Shown here piece by piece: positions 25,545 to 53,597 of a stretch of DNA of 64,000 nt. The DNA comes from Pseudothermotoga elfii DSM 9442 = NBRC 107921 (lineage in GTDB: Bacteria > Thermotogota > Thermotogae > Thermotogales > DSM-5069): NCBI RefSeq assembly GCF_000504085.1, contig NC_022792.1, positions 1,206,001 through 1,270,000 of the forward strand. Reading direction: 5' to 3'. Each line of letters opens with the position of its first letter. Position 1 is the first letter of the stretch. The position numbers were made by a program, and so were the translations under genes. Under the pieces are notes generated by a model. That model was not told the DNA's origin and did not search any database. It saw nothing but the letters and a program-made list of their open reading frames with translations.

Positions 25545-25589
25545 AATCACAACTGTCACAGTTTGTAGACAACTATCACATAAGTCACA
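25545..25589 (+). repeat. Five-iteron array upstream of AAA ATPase 1
   Basis: Five 7-bp units at 25545, 25554, 25564, 25574 and 25583 (AATCACA, TGTCACA, TGTAGAC, TATCACA, AGTCACA), spaced 9, 10, 10 and 9 bp, so all on about one face of the helix. The segment 25547-25589 recurs with only two mismatches in 43 at 26791-26833, after the gene. The array ends 11 bp before TATAAT (25601-25606), covering the -35 region of the ATPase promoter. Confidence 0.85.
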
Positions 25590-25622
25590 ATCTGTGATGT
25601 TATAATTATACCTGGTGGTCAA

Positions 25623-26786
25623 ATGAAAAAAGATGATATAAAACATATCCTGAAAGCACTTTTTGATGAACCCCTCTCCTCTAAGGATCTACTTGTTGAC
25701 AGAGAAAAAGAAATAGATTCTCTCAATATGGTGTGCTCACTCCAGCCGGCGGGAGTTTATGGTGTGTGCGGCGAAACGGGTGTTGGAAAAACAACTGTGT
25801 TGAACTTCGTTAATCCCGATGAAGGAGAAAGGATTTATCTGAAGCTCACAGAAAAAGAGAGCAAGGAGATAATAATTGCCGATATGCTTTACAAACTCGC
25901 TATGGAAGTAAAGAAAAGCAAAGCCACAGAGCTTTCGAAAATTGCAAAGCAAGTGATTGATTTCGTTGTCGAAGAAAGAAGTGAAACCAGTTCTCTTGGA
26001 GCGGCTGGAGGAGTTTTTGTGACAGGAAATTTTTCTAAAAGCACAACTCGCACAAAGAAATTCAATATTTATCAAACTTATGAATTGTTTGATGAACTCC
26101 TTGAGGCTCTATTGAAAAAATACAATAAAGTCGTTTTGCTTATAGATGAACTGGATAAAGAAAAAAAGGAAGAAGTGCTTGTAATTCTCGATTCGCTCAA
26201 AACTGTTTTTGGTAAAAACGGACTATTGGTAATACTTTCTTTGCCATTTGCGATATACAGGGAATACGTGAGAGACAGATTGAGATGGAACGAATCTGGG
26301 AATTTAGAGAATATACTGAAAGACACATTTTTTATAGAGCCACTCGATGATAAACAAATACAGCAAATGATCTCAAAAAGGTTGATAGCTTATCCAGACT
26401 ATTTCGATGGTGACGCTCTTTATGAAATAGCGAGATACAGTGATGGAAACCCAAGAGATGCCCTTTGGATTTCTCAACAGATCGTTCAGAATAATCTCGA
26501 TAACGAAAGAATAACAGGACAAATAGCAAGAGAAACTATTAAAAAGATAGTCAAAAGATATTTTGGAAGTTCCTGGGAATTAACAGATCTTCAGAAGAAG
26601 GTGCTTCGTATAGTAGCGGACCACCAGGGAAGTAGAAATGCTATAGTAAAAGAACTCGAGAAAAAAAACGTAAAAAGGCAAACCGCCTATACTTATATAA
26701 ACCGTCTGAAAGAAGATGGGCTGATAATTGAAAGAGATGAAAAATTAAGGGTTTCTGGGAAGATATTCTATTTGATCTCATCCTGA
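25623..26786 (+). CDS. Orc1/Cdc6-like AAA ATPase with C-terminal winged helix (ATPase 1)
   Basis: A 387-residue protein. Walker A is GETGVGKTT (50-58), Walker B LLIDELDKE (172-180), a sensor-1-like LVILSLPF, and a sensor-2-like GNPRDALWI (275-283) that recalls the Orc1/Cdc6 GDxR motif. The last ~70 residues look like a winged helix (QKKVLRIVADHQGSRN, then KRQTAYTYINRLKEDGLI). It is clearly paralogous to the protein at 51700-52857. It is flanked on both sides by five-iteron arrays, the likely targets of its winged helix. Exact family is not assigned; initiator, regulator or defence ATPase are all possible. Confidence 0.75.
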   Translation: MKKDDIKHILKALFDEPLSSKDLLVDREKEIDSLNMVCSLQPAGVYGVCGETGVGKTTVLNFVNPDEGERIYLKLTEKESKEIIIADMLYKLAMEVKKSKATELSKIAKQVIDFVVEERSETSSLGAAGGVFVTGNFSKSTTRTKKFNIYQTYELFDELLEALLKKYNKVVLLIDELDKEKKEEVLVILDSLKTVFGKNGLLVILSLPFAIYREYVRDRLRWNESGNLENILKDTFFIEPLDDKQIQQMISKRLIAYPDYFDGDALYEIARYSDGNPRDALWISQQIVQNNLDNERITGQIARETIKKIVKRYFGSSWELTDLQKKVLRIVADHQGSRNAIVKELEKKNVKRQTAYTYINRLKEDGLIIERDEKLRVSGKIFYLISS

Positions 26787-26788
26787 TC

Positions 26789-26833
26789 TGTCACAACTGT
26801 CACAGTTTGTAGACAACTGTCACACAAGTCACA
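26789..26833 (+). repeat. Five-iteron array downstream of AAA ATPase 1
   Basis: Units at 26789, 26798, 26808, 26818 and 26827 (TGTCACA, TGTCACA, TGTAGAC, TGTCACA, AGTCACA) with the same 9-10-10-9 spacing and orientation as the upstream array. It starts two bases after the ATPase stop and lies 45 bp before the start of the AAA/PD-(D/E)XK gene, so it may control that gene. Confidence 0.85.
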
Positions 26834-28533: not shown

Positions 28534-28752
28534 ATGAAACTCAAAGAGATGATTTTCATAGTAGAGGAAGATCCGGAGGGTGGATATAACGCCAGAGCTT
28601 TAGATTATAGTATTTTTACCGAATCAGACACCTTAGAAGCGCTCAAAGAGAATATAAAAGACGCTATAAATTGCCATTTTGAAAAAATTGATGACAGACC
28701 AGATATTATTCGACTCCACATTGTAAGAGAAGAAACATTTACATATGGCTAA
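28534..28752 (+). CDS. hicB: HicB-family antitoxin
   Basis: A 72-residue protein with the HicB partial RNase-H-like fold: FIVEEDPEGGYNARALD, FTESDTLEALKENIKDAIN. No added DNA-binding domain is apparent. It overlaps the HicA start by eight bases. GAAGGTGATG precedes the ATG. Confidence 0.85.
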   Translation: MKLKEMIFIVEEDPEGGYNARALDYSIFTESDTLEALKENIKDAINCHFEKIDDRPDIIRLHIVREETFTYG

Positions 28753-28987
28753 ACTTCCACGAAACCTTTCAGGTAGGGAGCTTGCCAAATTACTTAACGG
28801 GTATGGTTATGAGATCACAAGAAAGAGCGGCAGTCATCTGAGATTGTCCTCAAATATTATGGGTTATGAACATAGAATCACCATTCCAGATCATTCTTAT
28901 CTCAAAATAGGTACCTTAAATAACAACATAGCAGAATATCTGAAAATACCCAAAGAGCGTTTGATAAATGAGCTTTTTAGCAAGTGA
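28745..28987 (+). CDS. hicA: HicA-family mRNA interferase toxin
   Basis: An 80-residue dsRBD-like toxin. Motifs: LSGRELAKLLNGYGYEITRKSGSHLRL, with the catalytic histidine in GSH, then HRITIPDHSYLKIGTL. HicA toxins cleave mRNA at the ribosome and are held inactive by HicB. Here the antitoxin gene comes first, the less common order. Confidence 0.88.
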   Translation: MAKLPRNLSGRELAKLLNGYGYEITRKSGSHLRLSSNIMGYEHRITIPDHSYLKIGTLNNNIAEYLKIPKERLINELFSK

Positions 28988-29036: not shown

Positions 29037-29175
29037 GTGAAAAAACTACCAATAGTAATAAACGATTACAAACAAATCATAGAAGGTAACTACATATACA
29101 TAGACAAGATACCTACACGAGATGGCAACAGCAGGGATTTATTATTCTCCATTACAACCAGGGAGATTTGGGTAT
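29037..29175 (+). pseudogene. N-terminal remnant of a second AAA/PD-(D/E)XK gene
   Basis: After AGAGGAGGTC a GTG opens KKLPIVINDYKQIIEGNYIY, nearly the N-terminus of the 26878-28470 protein. The DNA match continues through the P-loop region but with a small deletion and frameshift around 29105, and ends near 29175. The rest to 29294 (about 120 bp) shows nothing recognisable. Confidence 0.85.
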
Positions 29176-51444: not shown

Positions 51445-51509
51445 TGCGAACCACTTCCTGGAGAGATATCATTTCATTTCACCATATTCGTGCGAATTTT
51501 TCTATTTCA

Positions 51510-51564
51510 TTCGATAAAAACGTACGATTTTATCGGATCTGTTCGATAAATACCGACGTGTTTG
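51510..51564. repeat. 55-bp duplicated segment, copy 1
   Basis: 47 of 55 bases match 54556-54610 in the same orientation. Each copy holds two direct TTCGATAAA boxes 32 bp apart; this copy also has a palindrome CGATAAAA-N8-TTTTATCG (51512-51535). It lies in the upstream region of AAA_14 copy A. In one minus-strand frame both copies read KHVGIYR...VFIE, so a shared coding relic is the alternative. Confidence 0.7.
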
Positions 51565-51593: not shown

Positions 51594-51640
51594 TGTCGAA
51601 CCTGTCCGGTGTCTGTCGAGTTTGTCGACGATGTCGAGAT
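51594..51640 (+). repeat. Five-iteron array upstream of AAA ATPase 2
   Basis: Units at 51594, 51603, 51614, 51623 and 51632 (TGTCGAA, TGTCCGG, TGTCGAG, TGTCGAC, TGTCGAG) spaced 9, 11, 9 and 9 bp. The 29 bases 51612-51640 recur identically at 52881-52909. The array ends 18 bp before TATAAT (51659-51664) of the ATPase 2 promoter. A TCACA-N6-TGTGA palindrome lies just upstream near 51574. Confidence 0.85.
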
Positions 51641-51699
51641 GTAGATAGGAATTTGTAGTATAATCTAAACAAAACAGAAAACAGAACAGGGGTGATTTT

Positions 51700-52862: not shown

Positions 52863-52909
52863 TGTCGAATCCGTTCAGCCTCTGTCGAGTTTGTCGACGA
52901 TGTCGAGAT
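52863..52909 (+). repeat. Five-iteron array downstream of AAA ATPase 2
   Basis: Units at 52863, 52872, 52883, 52892 and 52901 (TGTCGAA, CGTTCAG, TGTCGAG, TGTCGAC, TGTCGAG), same 9-11-9-9 spacing and orientation as the upstream array; starts eight bases after the ATPase stop codon begins. A further TGTCGAT lies at 52952. It precedes the GIY-YIG gene by about 175 bp. Confidence 0.85.
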
Positions 52910-53390: not shown

Positions 53391-53420
53391 TCTTTTCTAA
53401 TAAGTGGAGGGGATATAGTC

Positions 53421-53597
53421 ATTCAAATTCAGGCTAAAACCCCTATATGGACAGGAAATATCGATTCAAAAAGTGATACTATTCAGCCAACCGGAATAAT
53501 GGGTTCCCTCCGATGGTGGACAGAAGATCTCCTCAGAGGTATGAATGATTTTGCGTGTGATCCCACTGGCAAAACAATATGCCCTGGTGATGAATAA
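53421..53597 (+). pseudogene. N-terminal fragment of a cmr1-like gene
   Basis: From ATT at 53421, eight bases after GGAGGGG, 58 codons read as the N-terminus of Cmr1: KTPIWTGNIDSKSD, GIMGSLRWWTEDLLRGM, FACDPTG, ending at TAA. It aligns codon for codon with the cmr1-like gene at 59149, sharing its ATT start, but at the DNA level the two are clearly diverged. The PIN module begins 12 bases further on, so the rest of the gene is gone. A relic of a second type III CRISPR locus. Confidence 0.85.

Follow-up and report, generated by a model that had tools for sequence, protein, structure and literature searches.

A 64,000-nt stretch of the Pseudothermotoga elfii DSM 9442 chromosome, analysed here in full (the window), contains an AAA+ ATPase gene that lies between two near-identical arrays of short repeats, which raises the question of what the same array does at both ends of one gene. 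A preliminary description had proposed that the ATPase binds both arrays and that it either controls itself and a neighbouring nuclease-family gene or defines a mobile or replicating unit. We examined these proposals in the window and in 101 genomes.

A single ATPase gene between direct arrays

Two 43-nt segments (25547-25589 and 26791-26833), previously described as differing at two positions, lying in one orientation and each carrying five units at a spacing of 9-10-10-9, are indeed identical at 41 of 43 positions in direct orientation, and the full array of this locus (unit A) is 45 nt long with five units at that spacing (Table 1). The last unit or units of the promoter-side array (U array) overlie the −35 region as placed by the TATAAT box, as had been claimed. 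The second array (D array) was said to start two bases after the stop codon, which holds for the 45-mer, whereas the 43-mer then noted starts four bases after it. Only two copies of the 43-nt core pattern are found in the window at up to three mismatches, with 0 expected from 100 shuffles. These shuffles and the pairing in homologues rule out chance repeats as the origin of the pair, and a recent tandem duplication in one genome alone is ruled out by pairing that spans the relatives searched.

The whole genome has one clear paralogue of the unit A ATPase gene, which is also in the window (unit B) and was absent from the preliminary description. It has its own direct array pair, identical at 41 of 47 positions, in which TGTCGA replaces TGTCACA while the layout 0-9-19-29-38 is the same. 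Arrays of TGTCACA units are hereafter called type A, and those of TGTCGA units type B.

Table 1. Positions of the two array-bracketed ATPase units in the window
Feature	Position	Strand	Remarks
U array of unit A	25545..25589	+	five TGTCACA-type units, offsets 0, 9, 19, 29, 38
−10 box TATAAT of unit A ATPase promoter	25601..25606	+	read from sequence
AAA+ ATPase gene of unit A, 387 aa	25623..26786	+	Walker A GETGVGKTT, Walker B LLIDELDKE, C-terminal winged helix
D array of unit A	26789..26833	+	starts two bases past the stop codon (26784-26786)
U array of unit B	51594..51638	+	TGTCGA-type units
−10 box TATAAT of unit B promoter	51659..51664	+	read from sequence
Paralogous AAA+ ATPase gene of unit B, 385 aa	51700..52857	+	41% identical to unit A ATPase
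D array of unit B	52863..52907	+	TGTCGA-type units

An ATPase match at E ≤ 1e-3 was found in 40 of the 101 genomes (the genome of the window included), the few weakest of these matches probably being other ATPases. The preliminary description had suggested aligning the flanks of homologues for paired arrays. We compared flanks at 41 loci, from which three with broken genes (L033, L042 and L043) were set aside, and judged a pair complete by a pair test, a weight matrix and covariance models taken together. A complete pair, with one array at the promoter and one just past the stop codon, is present in 33 of the 38 intact Thermotogota homologues, and both arrays are in direct orientation in the complete pairs. 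Among the five other homologues, L010 has its next array 6.2 kb downstream, past a polysaccharide gene cluster, L015 has a U array only, L041 has a complete U array and a partial D array, and L029 and L032 have no array at the threshold. The D array typically starts 1-23 nt past the stop codon and often precedes a terminator-like hairpin; in genome G085 the reading frame extends into it. A TATAAT box lies about 7-23 nt beyond the U array in most loci. At some loci the similarity between the two sides continues into the promoter (74 of 78 positions at L021, 70 of 79 at L035), and judging from these alignments the D side there looks like a copy of the U side that has decayed. The ATPase gene is the only gene between the two arrays of the unit, which has no transposase.

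Several smaller features lie near the two units in the window. A HicBA-like toxin-antitoxin pair is found at 28534-28987 (HicA 4e-9; the HicB-like match is below the cutoff), and a PDDEXK_9 5′ fragment lies at 29037-29172, downstream of a full-length copy of that gene; a piece of this PDDEXK_9 5′ region, about 67 nt long, directly adjoins the U array in G002. Between unit B and a divergent AAA_14-DUF4143 gene, repeats following the pattern TTCGATAAA / TTCGAATTTATC (51497-51560) are kept in related genomes and are perhaps the operator array of that gene itself. To the right of unit B, a remnant at 53415-53594 resembles the Cmr1 N-terminus, as judged by eye against Cmr1 of L048/L071.

The ATPase and its probable binding sites

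Pfam assigns the unit A ATPase to KAP_NTPase (9.9e-11) and ATPase_2 (1.1e-8, above the cutoff), with weak winged-helix matches at the C-terminus, and GETGxGKTT-like and DELDKE motifs are invariant or near-invariant in 36 sequences. No NCBIfam family scores above the cutoff, and matches to PDB sequences are weak. An AlphaFold2 model built from the 36-sequence alignment (mean pLDDT 86.2, pTM 0.81; residues 123-145 unreliable) has a C-terminal winged helix formed by helices 322-364 and strands 368-377. Its best whole-chain fold match is an archaeal Cdc6/Orc1 protein on origin DNA, 2qby_A (Foldseek E 6.1e-12; VIA Z 18.6 over 320 aligned residues); given the rmsd of 8.5, the domains are probably set at different angles. 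Next come further Orc proteins of archaea (Z 17-18), the archaeal ATPase_2 protein 2qen (Z 16.5) and, lower, TnsC (7mbw, Z 14.2). The likeness to Orc1/Cdc6 raised in the preliminary description thus stands at the level of the predicted fold and not by sequence: the Pfam scan at E ≤ 1 returned KAP_NTPase, ATPase_2, AAA_22, MCM_C and others and no Orc/Cdc6 model, and no curated Orc family was assigned.

The two arrays of a locus are closely tied to each other. Identity within own pairs averages 0.919 (n = 28), compared with 0.714 between loci of the same type, and the own D array is the closest or joint closest D array in 21 of 28 loci. In G041, G081, G085 and G089, for example, the U and D arrays agree at all 45 positions. 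Between U and D arrays of the same locus, mismatches are fewer in the units (39/826) than in the spacers (63/434; P = 6e-9, Fisher's exact test, 28 loci), so that both arrays appear to be selected at their units. Moreover, array type and the recognition helix in the C-terminal winged helix vary together. Around residues 352-358, as read by eye in a 36-protein alignment, 12 of 13 type A rows have R-Q-T-[AVI]-Y-T-Y (L015 has K-Q-T-V-Y-T-Y) and type B rows have R-[TS]-T-[AS]-Y-[SD], the array-less L029 excepted. Since types A and B are split by one branch of the gene tree (97/94), this covariation counts as one independent event. Conserved pairing, constraint on the units and helix covariation make it very probable that the ATPase binds its own arrays, which lends support to the earlier proposal.

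The U arrays are also linked to promoters. A script found −10 boxes after at least 20 of 29 U arrays (shuffle mean 10.1), a lower bound because the scan began 6 nt past the array and missed closer boxes (e.g., at L007, L016-L018, L030 and L038). No −10 excess is seen at D arrays (6/29; shuffles 7.4) or at lone arrays, those away from an ATPase gene (11/40; shuffles 11.3). As a general role, control of a downstream nuclease gene, proposed earlier, was rejected: PDDEXK neighbours are not conserved, D arrays have no −10 excess, and the sequence after the D array varies by locus, often with a terminator-like hairpin. No neighbour gene family occurs in more than 3 of 17 neighbourhoods, which makes the nuclease gene in the window incidental, and no recombinase or integrase recurs in these neighbourhoods.

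Empty sites, lone arrays and islands

The preliminary description had also suggested looking for empty sites in related genomes. Three filled/empty comparisons, each within one genus or family, were obtained, and in each the empty site keeps one array. At the place where its relatives G042 and G041 carry array-ATPase-array, G012 has just one array; these 45 nt are identical to the G042 D array, array and right flank match the G042 D side at 92.5% over 563 nt, and left flank and array match the U side at 83% over 114 nt. One array likewise lies between two genes of G086 and G088 at the point where G081 and G096 carry array-ATPase-array, the left side matching the left side of the G081 U array (94.5%, 787 nt) and the right side that of the G096 D array (78.9%, 904 nt). 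In G026 array-ATPase-array adjoins a 464-aa ATPase gene, at which G028 has one array, with a left flank, array included, 87% identical over 294 nt. Flank identities of about 65-70%, the noise level for unrelated flanks, were not used. The wider distribution suggests loss, not gain, at the G012 and G086 sites, and the crossover position within the array is not at one fixed place. Furthermore, two f11 genomes (G082 and G089) have five lone arrays that join the end of a U-type left flank to the start of a D-type right flank, the combination that unit excision would leave; a sixth lone array, in G083, has an apparent decayed ATPase 3′ end on its left. These cases make loss of the unit with one array left behind well supported in several lineages.

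Other candidate sites were less clean. Sequence syntenic with the left flank of unit A in G002 is present without the unit in G000, G001 and G003, and G000/G002 homology begins inside the U array; an orthologous insertion at this tRNA-Leu was rejected, the right of the unit not being colinear with the G000, G001 and G003 sites. The syntenic unit-free stretch beside tRNA-Leu in G000 is the L087 region (G000:C1:735841-736842). A comparison of G050 with G072 as one unit at two sites was dropped, the left flank in G072 being a repeat family of the genus, and for a clean empty site in G011/G025 the flank was not found.

We searched the 101 genomes for arrays by covariance models of sequence only (R1 for type A, R2 for type B). 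At E ≤ 1e-6 there are 104 arrays (33 A and 71 B), of which 66 adjoin an ATPase gene, some of these genes damaged, and 38 (13 A and 25 B, in 27 genomes) lie away from one. One array (G081:1075616), 129 nt from the gene where the limit was 120, was counted by hand as ATPase-adjacent, giving 46 adjacent and 25 lone arrays for R2. Several lone arrays lie just past a stop codon, following a flippase gene (L065), a glycosyltransferase gene (L070) or a PDDEXK_9 gene (L056).

Within islands that hold several arrays, the strong arrays are all in one orientation. In three islands lone arrays delimit modules, several of which are defence-like, and the position of the unit is shifted relative to the modules. 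Beside or between lone arrays are a HEC-01-like AAA gene with DUF4276, a HEC-02-like AAA gene (2.8e-132), an AbiL/PDC-M38-like pair, an AriA/AriB-like pair, ImmA/IrrE with HTH, AbiEi/AbiEii, ParE, ATPase_2-DUF234 and AAA_14-DUF4143 genes, and radical SAM, MFS and polysaccharide genes; names given by PADLOC denote candidate systems, AAA domains matching many models. Two island proteins, L064:15095-17248 (717 aa) and L055:7939-11454 (1171 aa), are without a Pfam match at E ≤ 0.01. A type B array precedes the type III-B CRISPR (Cmr) operon in G000 (Cmr4 7.4e-37, Cmr1 7.8e-23) and in G002, where the genes were recognised by likeness. These arrays come with a −10-like box and may therefore be operators rather than scars.

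The order of modules also changes between genomes. The HEC-01-like module lies on opposite sides of the ATPase unit in G082 and G089 (module 90.4% identical over 2,109 nt, unit 94.7% over 1,330 nt), and an island of G026 that has the unit at its left end has in G028, between the same outer genes (92.9% and 94.9%), a decayed unit at its right end. The window segment to the right of unit B, with a PIN gene, is found in G027 to the left of the unit, between two arrays (90% over 742 nt). Within the genus of G017-G027, the units of G017, G019, G021 and G023 are 97-99% identical and their left neighbours differ, a flippase gene in G017/G019 and an AAA_14-DUF4143-like gene in G021/G023.

Units also seem to have spread between families. 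Genomes of another family have a unit B protein that is 96% identical to the one in G000, and in the gene tree the type A proteins of three families are intermixed, both of which indicate horizontal transfer. Some units, such as those of G041 and G042, have kept their flanks for a long time and are thus vertically inherited. Empty sites and shuffled islands agree with the earlier proposal of a mobile unit.

Explanations and known systems

The explanation that we favour, with moderate confidence, is that of an autoregulated one-gene mobile unit in which the ATPase brings the two arrays into contact and the arrays are junctions of recombination. ATPase molecules would assemble on each array, one protomer per turn of about 10 bp, act through the U array to repress the promoter of their own gene, and keep the U and D arrays together in a loop. 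Recombination between the synapsed arrays would free a circle with one array and leave one array behind, and such circles, as well as other array-ended modules, would enter at resident arrays. No dedicated recombinase was seen with the unit, and strand exchange could be carried out by the host RecA system. That the ATPase drives the movement is the part that we infer, and RecA-type recombination explains the filled/empty pairs equally well because the arrays are 45-bp direct repeats. It is quite possible that the gene is immobile and autoregulated, its ATPase binding the U and D arrays, looping the gene and repressing it; general homologous recombination between repeats that selection maintains would then produce losses, shuffling and lone arrays as side effects. 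The promoter linkage of the U arrays, the constraint on units in both arrays and the lack of a recurring neighbour gene such as a recombinase agree with this, and the filled/empty pairs of G012 and G086/G088 fit RecA deletion; however, it alone leaves unexplained the lone arrays in 27 of 101 genomes, their repeated combination of U-type left and D-type right flanks, and the module order changes and horizontal spread. A wider version of the mobile-unit explanation, which we put forward tentatively, is a recombinase-free cassette system in which an Orc1/Cdc6-like ATPase would pair its own direct arrays, drive their recombination, move itself and, by way of scattered arrays, build and reshuffle islands of defence, toxin-antitoxin and polysaccharide modules across Thermotogota.

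We consider it improbable that the ATPase instead clusters all the arrays of a genome and that modules acquired between them, with defence, polysaccharide or CRISPR genes, are insulated or silenced by the arrays. Lone arrays do edge variable modules, precede the Cmr operon and are co-oriented within islands, but they are not promoter-linked, and some array-bearing genomes (e.g., G012, G034, G086 and G088) have no ATPase match. Less probable still is a replication initiator with origin iterons in an integrated or cryptic replicon, even with iteron-like arrays adjoining the gene and a predicted fold whose nearest match is archaeal Orc1/Cdc6 bound to origin DNA: no homologue of the ATPase was found in plasmid, phage or viral (IMG/VR) collections, the unit is one chromosomal gene, and no gene family recurs widely nearby. 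The replicon reading was therefore rejected, and the earlier idea of a replicating unit finds no support.

How does such a unit relate to known systems? Archaeal Orc1/Cdc6 initiators have origin recognition box (ORB) repeats beside their genes, and the ATPase resembles them in these adjoining repeats and in its predicted whole-chain fold (AAA+ domain, lid and C-terminal winged helix). The unit, however, is bacterial, has arrays on both sides of the gene, looks mobile and shows nothing that points to a replicon. Archaeal ATPase_2 (MNS/STAND-like) ATPases are similar by the Pfam and 2qen matches given above, although KAP_NTPase scores better for the unit A ATPase, and we know of no paired arrays for them. 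Integron cassettes carry a recombination site after the stop codon, stand in strings of one orientation and include toxin-antitoxin and defence cargoes. The unit likewise has one gene with a recombination-like site just past its stop codon, and the modules lie co-oriented in series with such cargoes; in contrast to integron cassettes, no integrase recurs among neighbours in the 17 neighbourhoods, the site is made up of five units, directly repeated at helical spacing, the U array would also serve as an operator, and the site would be bound by the product of the cassette itself. Tn7-like elements have arrays of protein-binding sites at their ends. Their AAA+ regulator TnsC is related in fold to the ATPase, but, unlike Tn7-like or IS elements, the unit has no transposase and its bracketing arrays are direct, not inverted. 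Tn7-like elements have been reported to carry defence cargo (PMC8649781).

No description of such a unit, in which a single initiator-like ATPase gene is flanked by direct arrays of its own and lone arrays form joints of islands, was found in the open full-text literature in PMC. If the mobile-unit explanation is true, an initiator-like ATPase and its iterons would have become a mobile gene unit whose sites join defence islands, islands would be built in a way unlike that of an integron, transposon or conjugative element, and the 45-bp array would be a handle for locating defence modules in Thermotogota. With array pairs this alike, PCR on cultivable strains could test excision directly. Even on the modest reading, an autoregulated ATPase that loops its own gene, together with repeats that give rise to clean losses, this would still be a new family of regulators, one in which the code linking protein to site is unusually clear.

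One array lies in a different setting. In G076, which encodes both type A and type B ATPases, a lone type A array is directly followed by B-type units and adjoins an apparent tRNA gene (by eye; L078:4930-5014); genes for phage terminase and dUTPase lie in the same region. A prophage with such a composite array could serve as a decoy or as an entry site.
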